Shown here: positions 14,295-60,680 of the stretch, piece after piece
How positions within the stretch are numbered: position 1 is the stretch's first letter
Layout: each line of letters opens with the position of its first letter
Assembly (NCBI GenBank): GCA_015039465.1
Contig: MU130013.1
Coordinates: 334,169 to 398,168 of the forward strand
Source of the DNA: Phlegmacium glaucopus
Lineage: Eukaryota > Basidiomycota > Agaricomycetes > Agaricales > Cortinariaceae
Direction of reading: 5' to 3'
Length of the DNA: 64,000 nucleotides
The notes under the pieces: model-generated
What the model was told of the DNA's origin: nothing
Seen by the model: only the letters and a program-made list of their open reading frames with translations
Database searches by the model: none
Position numbers and translations under genes: made by a program

Positions 14295-17200
14295 CTAATC
14301 CAGAAACTATATTTGAGAGCAAATGTTGAGCAAAGTCAGAGCAATGAAATAAAATGCTGAGTAACATTTAAGAATTATGCATACCTCCAAAACCAAAACA
14401 TCTCCTGATATATATCCAAGGAATATCTTAGACTGATACAGACTTATAACTTGTGGGTTGCAGAAAGAAGGTGGAATCCAGATTGTCTGAAGGTTTTCAG
14501 TGTGGAATATGGTGCTTTCAGATATTGCAAGGAAATATGGCTGGGATGAGAGATGGATGTCACCATAAGTACCTTTCCAGGTAAAAACACCATCAGGCAA
14601 TGGTGATACAACATGTGATTGAATGTTATCAGATGAAGATGGAACAGAGGTATCTTCTCTTAGCTCTGATTCACACTCTCCTGTGGCTGTATTCCAGATC
14701 CGTGTAATGTAATCATCAGATGCAGTCACAATATGCATACCATCAGCAGAGAAAACAGCAGATGTGACCTGGGATGAATGTCCTTTTAGCTCTGCTTCAC
14801 ACTGTCCTGTAGCCATATTCCAGATCCGTGCAGTGTGATCATCAGATGTGGATACAATGTGCATACCATCAGGGGAGAAGACAGCAGATCTGACCCAGTT
14901 TGAATGTCCTTTTAACTCTGCTTCACACTCTCCTGTGGCTGTGTTCCATATCCGTGCAGTATAATCATTAGATGCAGACACAATATGCATATCGTTAGGA
15001 AAGAAGACAGCAGATCTGACACCATTTGAATGTCCTTTCAGCACTGCTTCACACTCTCCTGTAGCTGTATTCCAAATCAGTGCAGTGTGATCATCTGATG
15101 CAGACACAACATGCATACCATCATGAGAGAAGACAGCAGATCTGACCCAGGATGAATGTCCTTTCAGCACTGCTTCACACTCTCCTGTGGCTGTACTCCA
15201 GATCAGTGCAGTATGATCAGCAGATGCAGACACAACATGCATACCATCAGGAGAGAAAACAGCAGATGCAAGCCAGGATGAATGACCTTTCAGCTCTCCT
15301 TCATGCTCTTCTGTGGCTGTGGTCCAGATCAGTGCAGTGTGATCATCAGATGCAGACACAATATGCATACCATCAGGAGAGAAGACAGCAGATCTGACAG
15401 AGGATGAATGTCCTTTCAGCTCTGCTTCACACACTCCTGTGGTTGCATTCCAGATCCGTACAGTGTGATCATCAGAGGCAGACACAATGTGCATGCCATC
15501 AGGAGAGAAGGTAGCAGAATTGACTGAGTCTGAATGTCCTTTCAGCACTGCTTCACACACTGCTTCACATTCTCCTGTGGCTGTATTCCAGATCTGTGCT
15601 GTGTAATCAGCAGATGCAGACACAATATGCATACCATCAGGAGAGAAGACAGCAGATCTGGCAGATTTCAGCACTGCATCACACTGTCTTGTGGCTATGT
15701 TCCATATCCGTGCAGTGTGATCATCATATACAGACACAACATGCATACCATCAGGAGAGATGACAGTATATCTGGCATCTCCCAGCACTTCTTCACACTG
15801 TCCTGTGGCTATGTTCCATATCTGTGCAGTGTGATAATAATCAAATGTAGACACAATATACATGCCATCAGGAGAGAACACAGCAGATCTGACAGAGGAT
15901 GAATGTCCTGTCAGCTCTGCTTCACACACTCCTGTGGTTGCATTCCATATCCGTACAGTGCGATCATCAGAGGCAGACACAATGTGCATGCCATCAGGAG
16001 AGAAGGTAGCAGAATTGACCGGGCCTGAATGTCCTTGCAGCACTGCTTCACATTCTCCTGTGGCTGTATTCCAGATCTGTGCTGTGTAATCAGCAGATGC
16101 AGACACAATATGCATACCATCAGGAGAGATGACAGCATACCCAGTTGATTTCAGCACTGCTTCACACTCTCCTGTGGCTGTATTCCAGATCCGTGCAGTG
16201 TGATCAGCAGATGCAGACACAATATGCATACCATCAGGAGAGAAGACAGCAGAATTGACACCATTTGAATGCCTCAGAACTGCTTCAGACAGGCTCCATT
16301 CCTTTCTCCTTCCCACACAGAGCTTCCATTGACAGGCCATTCTACTTCCATATGTTTTCCAGATATCTGATTTCTCTGGCAGCCAAGCTAATGCTGATGG
16401 ACATCCTTCAAGGCTGTTCCTTTTGATGAACACAAAGTTCTCTTTCAAAAACCGTTCAGCATCAATCACCATTATGGCCAAGTGCTTTTGGTTCTAGTTT
16501 CTGTTGTAAGTGAAATTCATTTCCAGCAATCAGATCACTTACATTTACCCAAATTTTTAGCTTATATAGCACATGCACTGCAGTTTCCAACTTTCCTAAA
16601 ATACTCAAACAATCCATCCATCGCAGCAGAGATGTTTGGAAAAAATGTTTCAACTGATCAGATCCATTGTTATTGTCTGCATAAGTGAAGTGAAAGGCCC
16701 AGCTATCACAAGCATATGCAAGAGCTTCAGAAATATCTTCATGTCTCCTTTCTGCCAAGTAGGACACAACCTTTTTGGTTGACCATTCTTTGTCCATCAA
16801 TGACAGACACTGATGTGCTAGGGATTTATGTGAAACATTAGGGTCAAGGTAGTGCTTTGAGGAAAGAATTTGATTACTGATGAAATCATAGAAAGAAGCA
16901 TGCAGTATTGAGATGTGCTGAACTGGGTGTTGAGATGATGGAATATATATCAAAGAATGAAGGGAAGAAAGGGCATTCTCAACTTGTTCTATGGACAATT
17001 GCACCAAAACACTGATAGCACTCATAGAAAGAGGATTATAGACATATACAATAGCTTTAAGAACTAAGTGTATATCTAATCTTTCCCTAGGATTTGTAGA
17101 CTCATACACAGTATCCAAAATTCCCCCATAAAGAACATCCAGTGGTTGGGTGACACCAAATGTTAGCTCTGATGTGAAATCAACCACATCCAAAAGGCGC

Positions 17201-45465: not shown

Positions 45466-48400
45466 TTAAAGAATAGGCCTACCTGAAAGATCAAGGACGA
45501 TTACACGACCATCCGCTGAGCCCAACGCAATGCAAGTTCCACTTATCGCCAAACCATTGTAATTCGATGGCCCCCTGTATGAGACCGGAATCCAACAAAG
45601 GCGCTGTTTCGAATTCATCGACCAAACCCACCCATCATCACTGATAAAGGTCGGAAAACTTGACTTACATTTCCCATGGAGAAGAGTAGGAGAGTGAACA
45701 AGAGGATAAGTAGAGTTATTGTAAATCTCAACGCTGTTTCCAGTCACCGCATCCCACAGTCGAAGAATACTATCGTAGGATTCAGACAAGATTCGTGTGC
45801 CATCGGGTGAGAATGTAACAGACAGGACTTTATCAGAATGGCCCTTGAGCGTATTGAGATGAGCGCCGCTCACTGCATCCCACAGTCGAAGAGTCTCGTC
45901 GGCGGATCCAGACGCGATTCGTGTGCCGTCAGGTGAAAATGCGACAGACCAAACTGGGCCGGAATGGCCTTTGAGCGTATTGAGATGGGCGCCGCTCACT
46001 GCATCCCACAGTCGAAGAGTCCCGTCATCGGATCCAGACACGATTAGTGTGCCATCAGGTGAGAATGCAACAGATGAGACTGAGCCGGAATGCCCATCCA
46101 TAATCCGAACACAAGGGCTCCAAGTCTCATCTATACAATTATTTGTCCTGCCTAGTACTGATAATCTTTTGTGCTCGTACAGGGTCCAGAGAGTTGTCTG
46201 CCTCGGGGTAAAATGTAATGCTGAGTGATACACTTGGAGACAAGAAATATCGAGGATTGAGAAAAATTCACGAGTAAACCGCTCGCAATCATGCAGTAAT
46301 TCAACGACATTGCCCAAGTCGATAAAGTCCTTTTTCTGTGAAATATTAAGTCTTAGACACCTGCGAAAACACAAAGCACATACCAACAGAAATTCTTTCG
46401 CAGCATGTAAACCAATCAAACTATTTCGAAGCTCCCCTAACAGGCTACAAGCTTCGATCCAGTAAAGAAGATATTTATTGCAAAACTCCTTCAGGAGGGA
46501 GACCAGAGTATCCGACACCAGGGCATGGGTAAGGTGGAACATCCAATGACGGCATGAATACTGGATGTGAGGCAAAATGTTGTCCGTAATACGTGAATGT
46601 AAACCGTCGACTTCACTATTTAGTATACATGGATTGTTGATTCCACATATATCTTGTTTGAGTGACTGCATAGCTTCGAGACACCGAATTGCAAGTAATG
46701 TATGCTGTTTCTCGCTGTCCACTCTAAAGTTCGCATCGCGGCACCGATTAGAATCTGTTATGAAATCAACAAATGATGGATGGTGTAGCCGAATCAATTG
46801 GGTGTCACGGTCTGGTAAAATAAGAATGGAATAAAGATGTACCAGGGTTTGTCGGATGGTTGAGGGAGTCATACCAAGTAGATTCTCCAGACAAACAGGG
46901 GACAGCGGCTCTTGTAGGGAAACGATGCTACCGAGAATCATTTTCAGTCGACCTGATAGTTGAATTGAAATATCTGGGAATGCGTGCGTGAAGACGTGCA
47001 TGTACAATTTATCAAGATGGTGATAGGGGGATGATTGTGCATTGGCACTCAATACTTTCCCACTGAGGAGACGTGTGAGTTGACCTTGTGGATCAGAATC
47101 ATTTCGTTCTTCGATAAACTTGATTGAGGTCGCTGCAAAAATAAACAGGCCAAAGGACAAAGTCGCCAGTGCCTCGACATCCTCCTCCGACGGCCATGAA
47201 CTATTGAGGCCATAACGCCCCCTGATATCTTGGAGAGCTGACAAGAGATAGCGTTTGATGTCTTGTCGCACAACGCTTAGCTCCAGTTTGTGCAAGACCA
47301 GACATTGTGATGCTGCATTGAGATGACCCGACTTATGGGCAAAGACAGAGGTGATGGACTGTTCCGGTCGACTAGTTACCAAAATCTTCAGCGGTGAGAG
47401 TTTGGAAACATAACGAGAGAGTGAGGATAGGATGATGGATGTGGTGCCCATGTCCTTGCATTCGTCGAGAGCATCTATCACAATGAGACATAAACGGAAC
47501 GAATCACGAGCACATTGAAGAGGTTTTATGATAAGTTCTTCTAGTTGGTAAGGGACGCTCGCAGAGGCTAGGTGAGGGTTCGACTGAAGAATCTCCGCTA
47601 GCTGAACGCCAAAGGACGGAAATGTTTGCCCGAGATGATGGGCAATGGATGCAAAGATGAGATTCGGATTACTTCTGTCTGCAAAGTCGCGAGAGCAGAA
47701 GAAGCTTGTAACAGGGATTCCACGTCTTTTGCATTCATCGGCGAAAGTATATGAGAGCGTAGTCTTCCCCGTTCCAGCTGAACCATTTATCCAAAATATG
47801 GGCGTATTGGGAACATTGCTATCGCTGGCATCTTCAACACCTATCCACCGACGGAGTTGGCCTAGAACATCTACTCTCGTCCCATCAAGACACCGTGCTA
47901 CTTTTTGCGGATCAAGGGATTCGAACGAGGCGGAAAAAACCATAGGTGGGCGACCGTCTCGGATGTATCAGGTGAGGGCTGCCCATGTAAGGAAGAGGTT
48001 AACGAATAGTTACCTTTCACGTCTAATTTCGCCATCACTCCCTAGCCAAAATCTAAGATAGCACAAGGATACTTCATTTCGAAGAAACATACCTGGAATC
48101 CGTCGTTCAAGGTTTCCTGTACATGGTCAAGTTTTCCTTCAAACCTGGCATTATCATCTCTCAGCTGCTGTGAATCAATTCGTTTCAGACTGAATGGTTG
48201 TTAGATGAACAGAAAGATAAGCTAACATCTAGCGAGAACTCCACCGCGAGCATTGTTTCTATCTGGTTTCAAGGTACATCAGTCAGGATAAGACCGATAA
48301 GGATGTGTGCCCACCTGGAAGTTTTCGATAGACCATGAAATTGCCTGGACATGACAAGCTATAGACGCTGCATCGTTGATGTAGTTGAATGTGCGTCCCA

Positions 48401-49267: not shown

Positions 49268-49588
49268 TGTTGAATTATACGAGTTTCAGTCGTTGATTAT
49301 TTGTTTAGGTATCTTTTATCTTATCATCTCTTTTATTCTTTATTCGCGTTATCTTTTTGCATTACATAATCACGGTCATTTTGTCACGGATTTTACTTAT
49401 TACAAGTCTCAACTTTATCCTAAAGTTGAGACGTGAGCACAATCATTTTATTTCTACATTACAATAGCTGATCATTACCTAGAACTATTCATTTGTTCTA
49501 GGTAACATACATTCCATATTTAATATATAACTTTATCCTAAAGTTGAGACAACTATTCATTTGTTCTAGCTGCGAAATTATCCCAACA
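49268..49588 (+). repeat. 5' LTR (321 bp), TGTTG..CAACA
   Basis: Starts TGTTGAATTATACG and ends TCCCAACA, next to a primer-binding site GGTTATGGGCCCC (49589 onward) of the type seen in fungal Copia elements. It contains short internal repeats (CATTTGTTCTAG and TTATCCTAAAGTTGAGAC). The 3' LTR begins identically at 54081. Confidence 0.88.
49406..49432. repeat. 11-bp perfect hairpin in the LTR
   Basis: GTCTCAACTTT and AAAGTTGAGAC flank the 5-base loop ATCCT. The same hairpin exists in the reversed part of the 3' LTR. It may act in transcript termination or folding; position in R/U5 is likely but unproven. Confidence 0.75.
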
Positions 49589-49625
49589 GGTTATGGGCCC
49601 CGAAGACAAACTGTCTAACTTCACG

Positions 49626-52600
49626 ATGAACTCCAGCTCCGAATTCGCAAATCTAGCTATCCCAAAGCTCCGTGACGACGGAAGTAATTGGGCAGATTAC
49701 GAACCCAGAATCCATAAGGCCATGGGATCGAAAGGACTGTGGAGACACGTAGAAGGAACCGCGACAGCGCCCAAACCATTTGCACTCGTTGACTCGGTTC
49801 TGGTTTTAGAAGACCGAAAGACGTGTGCTACGGAAGAACAGATAGAAACGAAGGAAATCAGAATAGCAGAGTTTGAAAAACGAGAGTACTCAGCTCAACA
49901 CATCATTCTCTCTTCTGTCTCGAGCCGTCTTGCATCCAAAATCATCACTATGACCTCTGCCGAGGACATGTGGAAGGCTGTGAAGGCTGACGCGACGACG
50001 AAAAGCACCCTGTATATTCTGGATGCAGAAGATCAATTATCCAGCATGAAGTTAGCTGAAAACGAAGACCCAAAATCTCACTTAACCGAGCTAAAGCAAC
50101 ATTTTCAGCTAATGAACCAGCGACGCGATAACCTGTTAAAAATGGGATCAGACATATCCGAAACACGATTCAATATTATAGTAATGTCGTCCTTACCGGA
50201 ATCGTACCGACCAACCCTTCAGACCATCACGGCTGCCGAACGTGCTAGCGCCCTCTCAGGAGGTCAATTACAGCGGATGAAATCCGACGACCTTGTCTCC
50301 TTCATCATCGAGGAAGCGCATCACCGTGTCATAAATGACGAACGTGGCAAAACCGCGGAGTCTGCACTTGCCGCTCAAGCAAAAAGAGGTGGAAGGCACC
50401 GACATGGCAAGCAAAAGAGGTTCGATAAGCAAGGAAAAGCAGATTCCGATGACGCATGTGGAAATTGCGGGAAGCCTGGGCATAAGGAACCGGATTGTTG
50501 GTCAAAGGGTGGTGGCAAAGAAGGTCAAGGCCCGCGTCAAAAGAAGTCTAAGAGAATAGAGTCAGCCATTGTAGCTGTTGATGACGAAGAAGATAATCTC
50601 TTTGCCTTTACCTGCAGCTCTGACTGTGTCGACGTTGCAAATGCAATACCTGCCTTGAAATCCCAAGTAACCGGATGCGTCGACAGTGGAGCCACCCGAG
50701 ACTACTCTCCGGATCGCTCGATTTTCACTAACTATCAACGAATCGATCGTGAAATTACTACAGCCGACGGTCGAACAGTAAAGGCCATCGGCATGGGAGA
50801 TATGCATTTAGACCTGCCAAACGGGTCATCAAAAACCAGGATAACCTTTAAAGGCGCAATACACGCACCGGGCCTGGCTTTTACACTGATCTCAATCAGT
50901 AGACTCGAAAGGGCTGGACACCTAGTGACGTTTCATAAGGGTCAATGCACGATAAAACAGCCAAATGGACGTACCATTGCGACTATCCCTCGTGTTGACA
51001 ATCTGTATCGAATTCCTATGTCCAAACAGGTCCAACAGGGAGATCAAGCCAATGCCGCAGTTGAAAAGATGAATATCAACGACGCACATAGAAAACTTGG
51101 CCATATCTCTTTCTCCGCGATTAAACACGCTATATCCAAGGGTTATATCACCGGAATTGAATTGGATAATGATTCCAAAATAGAGTTTTGCAAGCCATGT
51201 GCAAAAGCTAAGTCAATACGACAACCTTACCCACAACGGTCAGAAACTCGAGCCACGAAATATGGCGAAAGGGTCCATTGGGATCTATGGGGACCAGCAT
51301 CAGTAAGAAGCTTAAATGGTCACCACTACGTAGCAGCTCGCATCGACGACGCAACTCGCAAAACCAAGCTTTACTTCCAAGAGAAGAAAAGCGAAACCTT
51401 CAAGTCCTATAAACAGGATGAAGCGTTCATAGAGACTCAAACCGGCCAACGTATAAAGATAATACGTTCTGATCGAGGGGGAGAGTTTCTGTCAAAACAA
51501 ATGGTTCAGCATCAAGATGAGAGAGGTACGAAACGCGAACTTACCGTTCACGATTCACCACCCCAAAACGGAACTGCTGAAAGAGGAATGCGAACGCGAA
51601 CCGAACGAGCTCGCGCCTTACTCCTGGCATCCGGTTTACCTCATTTCCTGTGGGAAGAAGCCATGAAGCATACAACTTGGCTTCAAAATCGAACCCCTAC
51701 ACGTTCATTAGATGGAAAGACTCCATACGAAATGATTAACAAAAAGAAACCATACCTTGGTGGTATCAAGGAATTTGGTGCAGCCGCCTATGTAAAGGAC
51801 TTGCATGCCGGAAAACTGGATGCTCGAGCCCAACGCGGACGATTTGTTGGCTACAACTCCAAATCAAAAGGATATCGTATATACTGGCCCGGAAAACGTT
51901 CTATCACTGTTGAGAGAAATGTTATTTTCGATGACAACGACATACAGCTTGTTAATGTTGACGTCTCTGGAGACTCACTGTCTGAGGGGGAGAAGCAAAA
52001 GATCATCCACCAGTCTCCAGATGCTGTCAAAAACATTAAAGAAACTGCAGAATCTCGCATTGAGTCTATCAATGATGCTCAATCAGAATACAATCCGGAA
52101 ATCACTCACGAAGATACAGTAGAATACCCTCCAGTCGAGCCGACAACCGAACCAGATCCTGAATCCAACGACGATCCAAATGTCCAACAGTACGGACGCG
52201 GCCGTCGTGCACGAAAACCACAAGGTGCATACAAGGCAATGAATGAGGGTCTCATAGCAGCCGTAGCCTGCTGTGACAATGCAACTGCTGAAATCGAATC
52301 GTCAGATCAATTTATCGACGAGGACAAAGAACTTAGCTATTTGCCCCCGGACTTCGCTCTTGTAAGCTCTCACCCATCTGATCCTCGCACGCTTGACGAA
52401 GCGTTGGCTGGACCTAATGCGAACGAATGGCAAGCTGCACTTGACTACGAAATTGGTCAGCTTGAAAAGTTCAAAACCTGGGTGGTAGAAGACTTACCAA
52501 AGGGCCATAGTACCATCCCATGTGGCGAAGTCCTGAGAGTGAAACGAGGACCTGATGGAAAGGTACAAAGCTACCGACTGCGAATTGTAGCCGGTGGACA

Positions 52601-53981
52601 CAGACAAGTCGAAGGAGTGAACTACACAGAAACGTTCTCATCCGCTGCAAAAATGCCGACTGTACGTGCCGTCCTCGCGAACGCTGCAGAACAAAACTGG
52701 GAAATAGAACATGTTGATGTAAAAAGCGCCTACCTTAACGCGCCTTTAAAAGAGACCGTCTACATGAAAGCACCACGTGGAGTTCTAAAACCCGGTCAGG
52801 AAGGAAAGGTCTTGAGGCTATTGAAGGGATTATACGGTCTCAAGCAAGCGGGGAGAGGGTGGTACATGGAGATGAGCAAAGTCTTCATAAATGATTTAGG
52901 CTTCAAACGATCCGCGGCAGATCATTCGGTATTTTATCGACGATCTGGGGAAGAACACACTATCGTTGCTGTAGCGACCGACGATATGGCAGTGACTTCA
53001 AAACGGATGGTTGATGCTAAAAATTTCAAAGCGAATATCAAAAAACATTGGGATATCACCGATAACGGACCTATTGGTTGGTTCTTGGGCTTCGAAATCA
53101 AGCGAGATAGAGAAGCTAGAACGATATCGATAAATCAGCGAGCGTACATTGAGAGTATAGTCGAAAAATTCAGGCTTACCAATGCTAAACCGGTCCATAC
53201 GCCTATGGATCCGGGAGCCCACTATTCCATCGATCAATGCCCATCATCCACAAATCAGATATCACGAATGCAAGGAGTACCCTATAACGAGGCGATAGGA
53301 AGTGTATTGTGGCCTGTCGTCGTGTCGAGACCTGATGCAGCCTACGCAGTCGGAGTCTTATCACAATTCATCCAAAATCCGGGACCTGCACATTGGGAAG
53401 GATTAAAACGTGTAATAACGTATCTTGGAACAACGAAGGATTACTGGCTTACCTTTGGTGGAAAATCGAATACCCTATTCGAAGGCTACTGCGATGCCGA
53501 TTGGGCAAGCCAGAAACACAGGCACTCGATTTCCGGATATTGTTTTCATTTCGGTAAAGGAGCGATATCGTGGAGTTCCAAAAAGCAGCACATTATAGCA
53601 TTATCGAGCACCGAAGCGGAATACATAGCGCTTACACACGCTGCAAAGGAGGCACTGTGGATGAAGAGTTTTGTCAGTGAGCTACGCGAGGACGCATCAG
53701 GACCTACCAAGATAAATTGCGATAACCAAGGTGCGATAGCGTTAGCGAAGGATAACAAGTTTCATTCGAGAACAAAGCACATCGACCTACGTTATCATTT
53801 TATCAGGGAGGCAGTCCAAGACGAGAAGATGGAAATTGACTACATACCGACCGATGAGAACGTTTCGGATATATTCACCAAGGCATTGGCGAGACCGAAA
53901 TTCGTTCAATTCGTGCAGCAGCTGGGGTTGGGGGCGTTGAGGAAGCCAGACATTCAAACTCAGTCTCGGAAACAACAATAA
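49626..53981 (+). CDS. Copia gag-pol polyprotein
   Basis: One ORF without breaks. An ATG at 49593 lies within the primer-binding site, so the ATG at 49626 (MNSSSEFANLAIPKLRDDGS) is the more likely start. In order: gag with zinc knuckle CGNCGKPGHKEPDC (CX2CX4HX4C), aspartic protease CVDSGATRDYS, integrase HHCC (HRKLGHISF.. and CKPCAKAK), integrase core HWDLWGPA / RSDRGGEF / NGTAERG with D-35-E spacing, reverse transcriptase (VDVKSAYLNAPLKETVYMK, then VAVATDDMAV as the catalytic DD motif) and RNase H (YCDADWAS, STEAEYIAL, TKHIDLRYHFIRE). The metal-binding RT box reads ATDDM where YVDDM is usual. All catalytic residues I can see are kept, so the element may be mobile. Confidence 0.93.
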   Translation: MNSSSEFANLAIPKLRDDGSNWADYEPRIHKAMGSKGLWRHVEGTATAPKPFALVDSVLVLEDRKTCATEEQIETKEIRIAEFEKREYSAQHIILSSVSSRLASKIITMTSAEDMWKAVKADATTKSTLYILDAEDQLSSMKLAENEDPKSHLTELKQHFQLMNQRRDNLLKMGSDISETRFNIIVMSSLPESYRPTLQTITAAERASALSGGQLQRMKSDDLVSFIIEEAHHRVINDERGKTAESALAAQAKRGGRHRHGKQKRFDKQGKADSDDACGNCGKPGHKEPDCWSKGGGKEGQGPRQKKSKRIESAIVAVDDEEDNLFAFTCSSDCVDVANAIPALKSQVTGCVDSGATRDYSPDRSIFTNYQRIDREITTADGRTVKAIGMGDMHLDLPNGSSKTRITFKGAIHAPGLAFTLISISRLERAGHLVTFHKGQCTIKQPNGRTIATIPRVDNLYRIPMSKQVQQGDQANAAVEKMNINDAHRKLGHISFSAIKHAISKGYITGIELDNDSKIEFCKPCAKAKSIRQPYPQRSETRATKYGERVHWDLWGPASVRSLNGHHYVAARIDDATRKTKLYFQEKKSETFKSYKQDEAFIETQTGQRIKIIRSDRGGEFLSKQMVQHQDERGTKRELTVHDSPPQNGTAERGMRTRTERARALLLASGLPHFLWEEAMKHTTWLQNRTPTRSLDGKTPYEMINKKKPYLGGIKEFGAAAYVKDLHAGKLDARAQRGRFVGYNSKSKGYRIYWPGKRSITVERNVIFDDNDIQLVNVDVSGDSLSEGEKQKIIHQSPDAVKNIKETAESRIESINDAQSEYNPEITHEDTVEYPPVEPTTEPDPESNDDPNVQQYGRGRRARKPQGAYKAMNEGLIAAVACCDNATAEIESSDQFIDEDKELSYLPPDFALVSSHPSDPRTLDEALAGPNANEWQAALDYEIGQLEKFKTWVVEDLPKGHSTIPCGEVLRVKRGPDGKVQSYRLRIVAGGHRQVEGVNYTETFSSAAKMPTVRAVLANAAEQNWEIEHVDVKSAYLNAPLKETVYMKAPRGVLKPGQEGKVLRLLKGLYGLKQAGRGWYMEMSKVFINDLGFKRSAADHSVFYRRSGEEHTIVAVATDDMAVTSKRMVDAKNFKANIKKHWDITDNGPIGWFLGFEIKRDREARTISINQRAYIESIVEKFRLTNAKPVHTPMDPGAHYSIDQCPSSTNQISRMQGVPYNEAIGSVLWPVVVSRPDAAYAVGVLSQFIQNPGPAHWEGLKRVITYLGTTKDYWLTFGGKSNTLFEGYCDADWASQKHRHSISGYCFHFGKGAISWSSKKQHIIALSSTEAEYIALTHAAKEALWMKSFVSELREDASGPTKINCDNQGAIALAKDNKFHSRTKHIDLRYHFIREAVQDEKMEIDYIPTDENVSDIFTKALARPKFVQFVQQLGLGALRKPDIQTQSRKQQ

Positions 53982-57093: not shown

Positions 57094-60000
57094 TCAATAA
57101 ATAAGAATTGAATCCATACACAAGAGATTATTCAATGCAGTCTGTACAACCTCTGCAACCAGTAATTCATGATTGATGTCATCAACAAGCAAAAAGCCTT
57201 TGAAAGGATTTGAGAATGTATGTTTGACATGACTCTTCACATGGGAGCCTTTGAAAATATTTTCTAGTTCAAAAATATTTTCAATTGCTTGCTTGATAGA
57301 GGCATTGTAAGTGGATTGCTGATAAATTTGAGCAGCTCTTTCTAAAGAGTTTCTGGTACTTGGTGATTCTTGATGAAGAAAGAAAGACAAGTGGCCAATA
57401 ATAGCTGCAACTAATAGTAAAGTTAATATTAGAGAGAGTATAGAAAAAAGGTTGAATCAGATGCATGCCAATTGCACAGTATGTAGCTTCTTTTAAGTTG
57501 AAAGTTGTAGATAAGCTGGAAACCTTGAAAGATGAAATTAGCCACTCTTCTGCCAGTGTATTGCCAAAGAGAAAACACTCACAATAGGTGACATAATTTT
57601 GGAGATGGAATCCTGTACATTGAAATTCAAAAACTAGACAAAAGAGTAAGTACAGAGATGGGAATGAGGCCAAAAAAATTTCACCAAATGTCATTTATTA
57701 TATAGATTCAAAACAAAAGTAAGAGTAATCACACTTACCATCTGTAAGCAAAGGTTTACATAGGTCAGCAGAGAAAAAGACAGATTAGAAAATTAATGCA
57801 CATACTTTCTGTTCAGAAATGTAAGTCATGGAGTAATTGGTAAATAACATTACATGTTCAACATACATACTGTCCAAAAGATATGCCAATCAGGTAAGCA
57901 GAAATGAAGATATGATTAATGCACCTACATACTGTCCAAATAGATTGTAACATCAGTAAAAGAAGGTGACAGAGTAATAGAGACTTCTCTGTGATTGAAC
58001 TTACCTCCTGTGAAAAGAGTAAGCTAGAGTCAAGACAGATCAAGATCATCTCCCACTTACCAACTGTCAAAAGAGTAAGCTAGAGTCAACACAGATTAGA
58101 TGGTCTTGCACTTACCTACTGTCAAAAGAGTAAGCTAGAGTCAAGGCAGATCAAGATGGTCTTGCACTTACCTCCTGTCAAAATAAAGGAGTAAGCTAGA
58201 GTCAAGGCAGATCAAGATAGTCTTGCACTTACATACTGTCAAAAGAGTAAGCTAGAGTCAAGGCAGATCAAGATGGTTGTGCACTTACAGACTGTCAAAA
58301 GAGTAAGCTAGAGTCAAGGCAGATCAAGATGGTCTTGCACTTACCTCCTGTCAAAAGTGCAAACTAGAGTCAAGGCAGATCAAGATGGTCTTGCACTTAC
58401 CCACTGTCAAAAGAGTAAGCTAGAGTCAAGGTAGATCAAGGTGGTCTTTCACTTACATACTGTCAAAAGAGTAAGCTAGAGTCAAGGCAGATCAAGATAA
58501 TCTTGCACTTACAGTCTGTCAAAAGAGTATGCTAGTGTCAAGGCAGATCAAGATGGTCTTGCACCTTACCCACTGTCAAAAGAGTAAGCTAGAGTCAAGG
58601 CAGATCAAGGTGGTCTTTCACTTACATACTGTCAAAAGAGTAAGCTAGAGTCAAGGCAGATCAAGATGGTCCTGCATTTACCCCCTGTCAAAAGAGCAAA
58701 CTAGAATCAAGGCAGATCAAGATGGCCTTGCACTTACAGGCTGTGAAAAGAGTAAGCTAGAGTCAAAGCAGATCGAGATGGTCTTGCACTTACAGGCTGT
58801 CAAAAGAGTAAGCTGAAGTCAAGGCAGATATCAAGATTGTCTTGCACTTACCAACTGTCAAAAGAGTAAGCTAGAGTCAAGGCAGATAAAGACAGTCTTA
58901 CATACTGTCAAAAGAGTAAGCTAGTATCAAGGCAGATCAAGATGGTCTTGCACTTACAGACTGTCAAAAGAGTAAGCTGGAGTCAAAGTAGATTAAGATA
59001 GTCTTGCACTTACATCCTGTCAAAAGAGTAAGCTGGAGTCAAGGCAGATCAAGATGGTCTTGTACTTACAGACTATCAAAAGAGTAAGCTTGAGTTGAGG
59101 CAGATCAAGATGGTCTTGTACTTACAAACTATCAAAAGAGTAAGCTAAAGTCAAGGCAGATCAAGATGGTCTTGCACTTACCCACTGTCAAAAGAGTAAG
59201 CTTGAATCAAGGCAGATCAAGATGGTCTTGCACTTACAGACTGTCAAAAGAGTAAGCTAGGGTCAAGGCAGATCAAGGTGGTCTTGCACTTACAAACTGT
59301 TAAAAAATTCAGGTAATAAGCAATAATGACTCTCTTTTCCTACGCACATGCTGTCATAATATATGTTAGTCTAAACTGTTAAGCATTAAATCCTCAAGAT
59401 AACATTCTACAAAATCAGCTGTCAATTCCTGCTTTAGTCTTATCAAATACATACCACAATTTGTGGAAAATATCTCAGAACAATTGCCATGATATATGCC
59501 CAATCTCCTTTAACCTTCTGAAAATATCCCAGCAGAGTTGATTTTGTCTCATTCAAAAGTCTAAGAATTATGTTAATGTGGGAATTGAAAAATAAATGGT
59601 TCCCAACCTTTTAACCCCATATTTAATACAGACCTCAACATTGTTTTGCTGTGTTGAAAGAAAGAGCTGTTGTAATTCTTCACTAGACAGTGCAGCTGTT
59701 GTTTTTTCAATCAACTCTGTACAATCAGCTCCAGGCTCATGCATCTCTATAACACAATTAGCCAAATAGTTGTTATCAAGTATAGCACTTACTTCGAAAT
59801 ACAACATATGCCTTTGGTGGATATTTGAACTCTTCAAACCGTTCATGAATACTCTGTTCAAAATCAGTCCAAGCTTTTTGTGGAGCTTGTTGCATTGCCT
59901 CAGATCTGCTGTTACCTTCCTTCATGAGTTGCTTAATTTTAGCAATATCAAGAGAGTCAGTCTTGGTCCACAAAACAATCACTGGTACTTCACAGACTTA

Positions 60001-60680
60001 TCCTTCACAGTAACATATTAATAAGATGAACCACACATACCAAGCCCTGTCCCACATTCATTGAAAAATTTCTTCTCTGCTGCCGTAATTGGTCGGTCGT
60101 CACTCGTTGGAATGCAGTACCTGCCCAAAATATTTTCTTCTGTCAATAAATTTGTTCTCTAAAGGCAAGTACTAACACACCAGATCGCGTGAAGTTGCCT
60201 CCTCACATTTTTTGCCTGTGAACGCTCCTTAATGAACTCCTGTACCATCTTCAACTCCTGAGCACCGCCAGCTTCAAAACCACGGGAATCATGAAAGATA
60301 AAACCAGGGTTGCTCTCAAATATCATCCCATTCCTGATATCATGCTCTCCACGCTGTGGTGTGAGGATATTAATTGAACCAAAACCCAACACTAGTACAA
60401 GAACTGCTTACCCCCATCGATGGATTAAGGGCTGAGGACTCGATCTTAGATCATGAGCATAGATGTCAGCATCTTGCATGAACTTTCACCATATACCTCA
60501 CCTTTCGACCATTCGGACTGAACTTGATCATAGGTTCTCCTGTAGTGTTGCAGAGTCTTCGCAGGATTGTTGTCTTGCCTGCGTTGGCTCGCCCAATCAC
60601 CAGGATACGGAATCGGGTAAATCTTTCTTTCAGTTGTTTATCTGGTCAGCAGTGAGTTGGGGTTTCGATGAAGTAGACAT
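57094..60680 (-). CDS. P-loop GTPase with a C-terminal region carrying a 3-nt microexon array
   Basis: Exons: 60502-60680, 60181-60353, 60041-60120, 59793-59987, 59608-59746, 59455-59560, a probable 8-nt exon 59411-59418, 29 three-nt exons (59350 down to 57739), tentative small exons near 57590 and 57530, and a last exon 57094-57410. Motifs: G1 RILVIGRANAGKTTILRR, G3 FHDSRGFEAGG, G4 VIVLWTKTDSLD. Helical parts follow (AALSSEELQQLFLSTQQNNV, LLNETKSTLLGYFQKVKGDW), then the microexon-coded hydrophobic segment, then a hydrophilic tail (SLERAAQIYQQSTYNASIKQ). Role unknown; a membrane-anchored GTPase is inferred. Oddity: MSTSSKPQLTADQINN from the ATG at 60680 runs into TGA, while the G1 frame begins LKERFTRF one base off, so either a 1-nt error or mutation, or an unseen start, exists near 60630. 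Confidence 0.7.
57739..59350 (-). repeat. Tandem array of 29 single-codon microexons and short introns
   Basis: Read on the minus strand, each unit is GTAAGTGCAAGACCATCTTG.. ending CTTACTCTTTTGACAG (53 nt, with a CTTAC branch-like site) and then exactly three other bases before the next GTAAGT. Triplets lie at (plus coordinates of first base) 57739, 57806, 57867, 57929, 58005, 58061, 58116, 58172, 58233, 58289, 58345, 58401, 58457, 58513, 58570, 58626, 58682, 58738, 58794, 58852, 58902, 58958, 59014, 59070, 59126, 59182, 59238, 59294 and 59348. The main period is 56 bp. All 29 keep AG before and GT after, despite substitutions and indels elsewhere in the units. The triplets vary (TAT six, TCT four, GAG and TGG three each, eleven others). 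Introns of the first four and the last unit are unrelated in sequence to the core. Confidence 0.82.

Follow-up and report, generated by a model that had tools for sequence, protein, structure and literature searches.

Genes of an expanded family of probable GTPases in the mushroom Phlegmacium glaucopus contain tandem arrays in which base triplets alternate with predicted short introns, and we propose, with a probability of roughly 0.87, that the triplets are functional exons of one codon each, which together encode a hypervariable segment located after the GTPase part of the protein and ahead of its C-terminal helices. Translation of the triplets as single codons, in one frame, is strongly supported at the level of sequence by the near absence of stops from that frame. 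We postulate that the spliceosome would join the array one codon at a time, such that each gene copy gets a hypervariable stretch of its own.

The array gene and its family

In the window, by which we mean the whole 64,000-nucleotide stretch of DNA analysed, the array gene spans 60680 to 57094 on the minus strand (Table 1). Its array consists of 29 triplets, each flanked by an AG acceptor and a GT donor, the first being CAT (59350–59348) and the last ATG (57741–57739). The sequence-only reading had placed 29 three-nucleotide exons between complete short introns here, and had taken the host for a GTPase gene with tandem single-codon exons; the former are present on the minus strand, and the latter is supported by what follows. 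Unit spacing is 56 bp in 18 of 28 cases and 50 to 76 in the remainder, and Tandem Repeats Finder resolves a 56-bp unit in 23.4 copies at 57995–59305. In the units closest to the 3' end of the gene the introns (GTAGGT.., GTATGT..) are unlike the repeat and the exon is still 3 nt long, while the first donor of the array is GTGCGT and one inner unit has GTAAAT. The exon ending at 59455 is separated from the first triplet by an intron of 104 nt; an 8-nt exon suggested earlier at 59411–59418 is not supported, as this stretch varies in length within one intron among paralogues.

Table 1. Features of the array gene, in positions of the window
Feature	Position	Strand	Remark
Exon E1	60502..60680	-	Start codon, P-loop GRANAGKTT; frame broken, one base missing compared with locus L013
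Exon E2	60412..60444	-	
Exon E3	60181..60353	-	GTPase part
Exon E4	60041..60120	-	
Exon E5	59793..59987	-	
Exon E6a	59608..59746	-	Separated from E6b as in database protein P0002
Exon E6b	59455..59560	-	Phase-0 end before array; last codons ..YFPQIV in locus L012
Single-codon exon array, 29 x 3 nt, short introns between	57739..59350	-	
Exon C1	57583..57612	-	DSISKIMSPI, phase-0 start
Exon C2	57469..57523	-	Followed by GC-AG intron, as read from database proteins P0002 and P0121
Exon C3	57094..57410	-	C-terminal helical part, stop TGA

The window copy is probably a degenerate member of the family, because its first exon is frameshifted and one of its triplets is a TAG stop (58118–58116). The break in exon 1 stands, and may be a sequencing error. 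A second frameshift once read in E6 was withdrawn, the stretch being an intron in P0002 and in locus L023; the sixth exon is split by an intron according to the same comparison. As to its neighbourhood, the window begins with a near-perfect palindromic fold-back element (1–2330) whose two ends carry 11-bp tandem repeats and whose arms, e.g. 30–506 and 1820–2296, are 97% complementary. About 3 kb past the 3' end of the array gene lies a 1,477-codon open frame on the plus strand (49548–53981), which we take to be an intact copia-type retrotransposon polyprotein, and 126-bp tandem repeats of high internal similarity, presumably of the WD40 type, occur at 14662–16253 and 45744–46092.

The genome of this ectomycorrhizal fungus comprises 60.5 Mb in 259 contigs, the window forming part of contig 15. 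Searching it with the array DNA gave at least 93 matches, which we assigned manually to about 39 clusters, the window among them, and other pattern searches added at least 3 array places beyond these; the host family is thus an expanded multigene family with array clusters numbering about 39. We read the window together with 24 loci as a first set of 25, and held out five more, which amounts to the window and 29 of the approximately 38 other clusters, or 30 loci and 1,418 triplets. Loci of the first set hold 21 to 95 triplets and those of the held-out set up to 99, counts in which a few units were missed where a splice site is altered. Triplet number hence differs between gene copies, as the gain and loss of units foreseen in the sequence-only reading would have it. 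Genome-wide, the pattern ACAG-NNN-GTAAGT-N{40,60}-ACAG-NNN-GTAAGT matched 725 times, against 16 times for a reversed control. A pattern search of the genome for other array families with GCAG acceptors yielded four hits. Three belong to the GTPase family, and the fourth, an isolated pair of GCAG-NNN-GTAAGT-type junctions that lies outside it (contig 93:116814–116896), is a possible single 3-nt exon elsewhere.

Several family members can be read across the array. L012 is open from its start codon via six exons, 49 triplets and three further exons to the stop in our first model, its exons are open with corrected exon ends too, and the predicted peptide of its array reads QIEWYSLGELREKYG... Both exons that flank the array are in phase 0, the upstream one ending in YFPQIV in L012 and the downstream one starting with DSISKIMSPI, and the intron separating C2 from C3 has a GC donor. 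Joined N-terminal exons are free of stops in 19 of 25 loci and broken in six (L014, L019, L024, L026, L031 and the window). C-terminal exons joined by script contain stops in 4 of 25 loci (L020, L026, L028, L032), partly owing to misplaced exon ends. In L020 and L026 (contig 8 near 334700) unrelated sequence follows the array ahead of the C-terminal exons, probably as a result of insertions.

The product of the array gene carries the P-loop motif GxxxxGK[ST], as GRANAGKT. In Pfam, L012 scores 21.0 for Arf (cut-off 22.3) and 20.8 for MMR_HSR1 (cut-off 21.9); these are the best matches of the array gene, and neither NACHT nor ANK is among the Pfam matches listed. The protein search covered the best 120 of 777 matches. 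Of 45 relatives, 28 match Arf and 28 match MMR_HSR1 (E<=0.001). The structural model of a more distant relative, P0019, is confident for the GTPase part and the C-terminal helices and of low confidence around the array position (residues 311–360, pLDDT 44–58 by blocks). The best Foldseek hits are GM4951, the dynamin-like BDLP, G-alpha subunits and IRGa6 (E 4e-05 to 1e-03), to which the modelled protein would bear only a loose likeness since TM-scores by query length are about 0.2–0.3.

Stop avoidance and splice sites

Read as codons, the 1,418 triplets of all 30 loci include 2 stops, compared with about 137 expected from base composition. For the first 25 loci (1,085 triplets) positional base frequencies predict 113 stops, again against 2 observed, and 2,000 shuffles of the columns within arrays averaged 109 stops and never fell below 84. 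The five held-out loci (333 triplets) contain none against 23.7 expected, with 31 and 56 stops in their other frames, and none against 91.5 expected are found in the 19 loci with open N-terminal exons (847 triplets). In the first 25 loci 36 and 148 stops occur in the remaining frames, compared with 48 (s.d. 4.9) and 149 (s.d. 6.9) when triplet order is shuffled, which leaves frame 1 with somewhat fewer than its shuffled expectation. A transmembrane helix read by eye from the window's triplets in frame 1 was considered and rejected; other loci are unlike it, and the avoidance of stops in frame 1 is not comparable. Both stop triplets fall in broken loci, namely the window and L026, and the remaining four of the six are free of stop triplets.

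The triplets show two further biases. A third-position C occurs in 0 of 1,085 triplets of the 25 loci and in 1 of 333 held out, as would be expected if CpG formed with the G that follows were lost. Likewise GT inside the triplet is rarer than expected, both as GTN (32 vs 98) and as NGT (21 vs 88).

Of 904 GTAAGT sites in the 25 loci, 714 have their nearest upstream ACAG exactly 3 nt away, 22 have it at another distance of up to 60 nt and 168 have none within 60 nt; among held-out sites with ACAG in reach, 207 of 213 delimit a 3-nt exon. As detection of array chains required AG and GT, these dinucleotides are fixed by construction there, and donors and acceptors were tested separately with that requirement lifted. 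In the 30 loci, 854 dinucleotides were scored after YTTTNAYAG and three bases: 838 are GT, 16 are GC, and none is AT, GA, GG or TT, the four others tried; GC is the usual tolerated donor variant. AG precedes the triplet in 628 of 632 cases. The earlier statement that the flanking AG and GT are never mutated is accordingly right for the window and too strong for other loci, where besides the GC donors a few junctions have been lost.

The intron is 53 nt long in 670 of 1,051 units, and its retention would bring an in-frame stop in 916 of the 1,051. Splicing would proceed by intron definition, probably stepwise, because exon definition cannot bridge an exon of 3 nt.

Conserved introns and saturated codons

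Our comparison of units reveals a sharp difference between intron and codon. Across 670 units of 56 bp, intron sites agree with the consensus in 78–97% of cases and coding sites in 39–43%, the splice dinucleotides being set aside as invariant through the demands of detection. Within the intron, A and T sites tend to be better conserved than C and G sites, a pattern that resembles neutral decay. The 53-nt intron consensus is common to all 25 loci (24 exact, one differing by 1), and pooled units of the five held-out loci give the identical master. Units differ nearly as much within a locus as between loci (0.156 for neighbours, 0.174 for units of other loci). Pairs of units from the same locus with introns that differ at 1 of 53 sites share their triplet in 22% of cases (108 pairs), and those with identical introns in 49% (37 pairs). 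Adjacent identical triplets number 134 against 93 in shuffled arrays (s.d. 8), so that some tandem duplication is visible.

Between loci the codons have diverged far more than the remainder of the gene. In the 19 loci with open N-terminal exons, mean protein identity is 81.9% in the N-terminal part and 31.6% in the array interior, where shuffled arrays give 31.0%. Single pairs exceed their shuffles, among them L012 and L025 (48% vs 22%). Array codons thus appear to be at or near saturation, in contrast to the introns and the flanking exons. From this pattern we infer diversifying selection aided by recombination in the introns: these would offer extended homology for crossing-over, by which whole codons are gained, lost and reshuffled with the frame unshifted, and selection would favour new codons. 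The segment may owe its variability to the recognition of a variable target, for instance non-self or a partner, and perhaps has a role in self/non-self recognition; this is the least certain step of the scheme.

One conceivable extension, which we consider rather unlikely, is that the array behaves as a library of beads, each made of the master intron and a free codon, with a common source feeding the arrays of dozens of GTPase receptors. A recognition segment could then be rewritten residue by residue, possibly by a programmed process, and the frame would not be at risk. Such an arrangement is compatible with our data because the master intron is uniform at every locus read and the codons are saturated. 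Against instant rewriting of codons stand recent block duplications, in which 63 of 128 unit pairs keep an identical codon (29 of the 47 windows come from one glycine-rich array).

The shared master also invites comparison with the introner-like elements of fungi, near-identical introns found at many places. The array introns resemble these in being near-identical at many sites and differ in their tandem order within one gene family, their 3-nt exons and, as far as exact intron ends reveal, the lack of solitary copies. If a mobile intron had spread in a burst into an older, uninterrupted coding sequence, landing between its codons, the codon diversity would be a legacy of that sequence. The one consensus of first-set and held-out loci, together with neighbours hardly more alike than units from other loci, speaks for such a burst. 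We nevertheless think it unlikely. Random insertion would not yield exact 3-nt spacing in phase 0, and gene copies about 82% identical elsewhere share array sequence at chance level on average. Moreover, a genome search for solitary copies with exact 16- and 14-nt intron ends, in which diverged copies could be missed, found none outside the arrays: the 16-nt acceptor end has 484 hits, of which 4 are followed by NNN and a base other than G, 4 donor ends lack the upstream G, and all 8 of these exceptions lie within array clusters.

Database proteins and comparable systems

The database proteins P0121 (295 residues, 1,373-base contig) and P0122 (285 residues, 955-base contig) are very probably derived from cDNA, since they run uninterrupted across several genomic intron positions. 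At the array position they have segments of 42 and about 50 residues, YVKFATLKWREMEMEWVTMMEWWEEEKEEWEEEWEKWEHHDL and WIGYQFFKEYEFTKDGRRRTFKEFEEEEEGFLEFIEEEEKFFDTGFPMYD respectively, the ends of which were chosen by us. The P0121 segment starts with YV and ends in EHHDL. Among the genomic arrays as found, 19 of 25 have I or V as second residue, and array ends include EYYQM and EYYKM as well as EHHDR (L030) and EHHTG (L028). By a score of array-like composition the P0121 segment ranks in the top 0.07%, and that of P0122 is weakly array-like (4.8 bits, a score reached by 235 of 35,337 background windows). More distant relatives have a low-complexity segment at this position; that of P0019 is more array-like than all 36,590 background windows, and the segments of P0029 and P0035 are not array-like in composition.

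Public gene models speak against inclusion of the triplets. P0002 (BYT27DRAFT_7202008) splices directly over the array and P0001 and P0004 end at what looks like the first array intron, and because these models skip or truncate the arrays the proteins are probably mis-annotated. P0002 also has an array-like insert, EKIEEEEKYDWEYSLREYYQVQI, between E4 and E5, which its best genome locus lacks. The insert looked like a contiguous array peptide, as from a natural cDNA, and a search of the genome did not find it; it could be another allele or the outcome of an RNA-guided model.

Two short-contig proteins, P0003 and P0032, end after apparently reading into the GTATGT intron that precedes the array, which suggests retention of this intron and a truncated product. 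They lend some colour to a purely regulatory array, in which the triplets are normally left out and the splice sites act as decoys that stall splicing, with a truncated GTPase arising by intron retention. We regard this as quite improbable, because neither the avoidance of stops nor the diversity of codons would arise if the triplets were not translated and because P0121 and P0122 continue beyond the array; such a role may exist in addition to coding. Very unlikely, finally, is the non-coding 56-bp satellite within one long intron that the sequence-only reading had offered as its alternative, to be removed whole with E6b joined to C1: P0002 is annotated in this way and the frame remains open when the array is skipped, but the roughly 60-fold avoidance of stops is confined to one frame, donors vary between GT and GC and no further, a nearest-acceptor ACAG delimits an exon of 3 nt in 714 of 736 cases and in 207 of 213 held out, and the cDNA-like proteins carry a peptide at the array place.

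The proposed single-codon exons have partial counterparts elsewhere. Schistosome micro-exon genes and aphid bicycle genes have many very small exons, which are longer than 3 nt, are not known to be repeats of one intron unit and belong to secreted products. Closest is the truffle Tuber melanosporum, for which citing papers credit Iotti et al. 2012 with the finding that nank genes or NLRs gain diversity when microexons, described as codon-sized or as 3 bp long, are spliced alternatively; one of the papers speaks of tens of them (PMC4986451, PMC3689799, PMC10197012). An earlier remark that no fungal array of single-codon exons had been described thus does not hold. As far as these citing papers portray them, the Tuber genes share with ours tens of consecutive frame-neutral 3-bp exons, an expanded family in an ectomycorrhizal fungus and a proposed diversification of a recognition protein. 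They differ in their host, an NLR-type NACHT-ANK protein of Ascomycota rather than a GTPase of Basidiomycota, and in the alternative splicing reported there. For the mushroom arrays we describe one master intron common to the loci and saturation of the codons, the comparison with Tuber being made through the citing papers. New compared with Tuber are the GTPase host, the other phylum and the codon hypervariability. Our search of the open-access literature found no tandem single-codon exons in a basidiomycete; one paper states that there was no earlier description of functional microexons from filamentous fungi, although Iotti et al. is among its citations (PMC11121469).

Other systems share single features with the arrays. 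P450 genes of the basidiomycete Phanerochaete chrysosporium have scattered microexons of 2–10 residues (shortest exon 6 bp) and introns of 45–55 bp, and the relevant part of that account describes no tandem arrays of 3-nt exons (PMC1184071). The HNWD genes of Podospora, as summarised in the pertinent section of one paper, combine alike tandem repeats, hypervariable codons, length polymorphism and exchange between loci; there, as in WD, ANK and TPR repeats under concerted evolution generally, the conserved repeat is coding, whereas in our arrays it is intron and the hypervariable codon alone codes (PMC4986451). Because the repeated part is an intron, the mushroom arrays would work like the concerted repeats of fungal NLRs and yet not be an instance of them. 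The HYP effectors of cyst nematodes, going by part of their description, likewise vary in motif number and order between conserved flanks, apparently free of error, but do so as many alleles of single-gene loci rather than as many paralogues with codons separated by introns (PMC11228951).

The implication is that exons of the minimum size for a whole codon may number well above a thousand in one genome. The evidence for their translation, obtained independently of RNA, is strong as far as genomic DNA can speak, stops being missing from one frame only. Mutation and selection are unusually separable here, with 53 of 56 bases in the intron and the three coding bases saturated. The arrays make two questions directly testable: how splicing copes with 3-nt exons lined up by the dozen, and whether introns, acting as buffers for recombination, allow a segment of a protein to diversify in safety.
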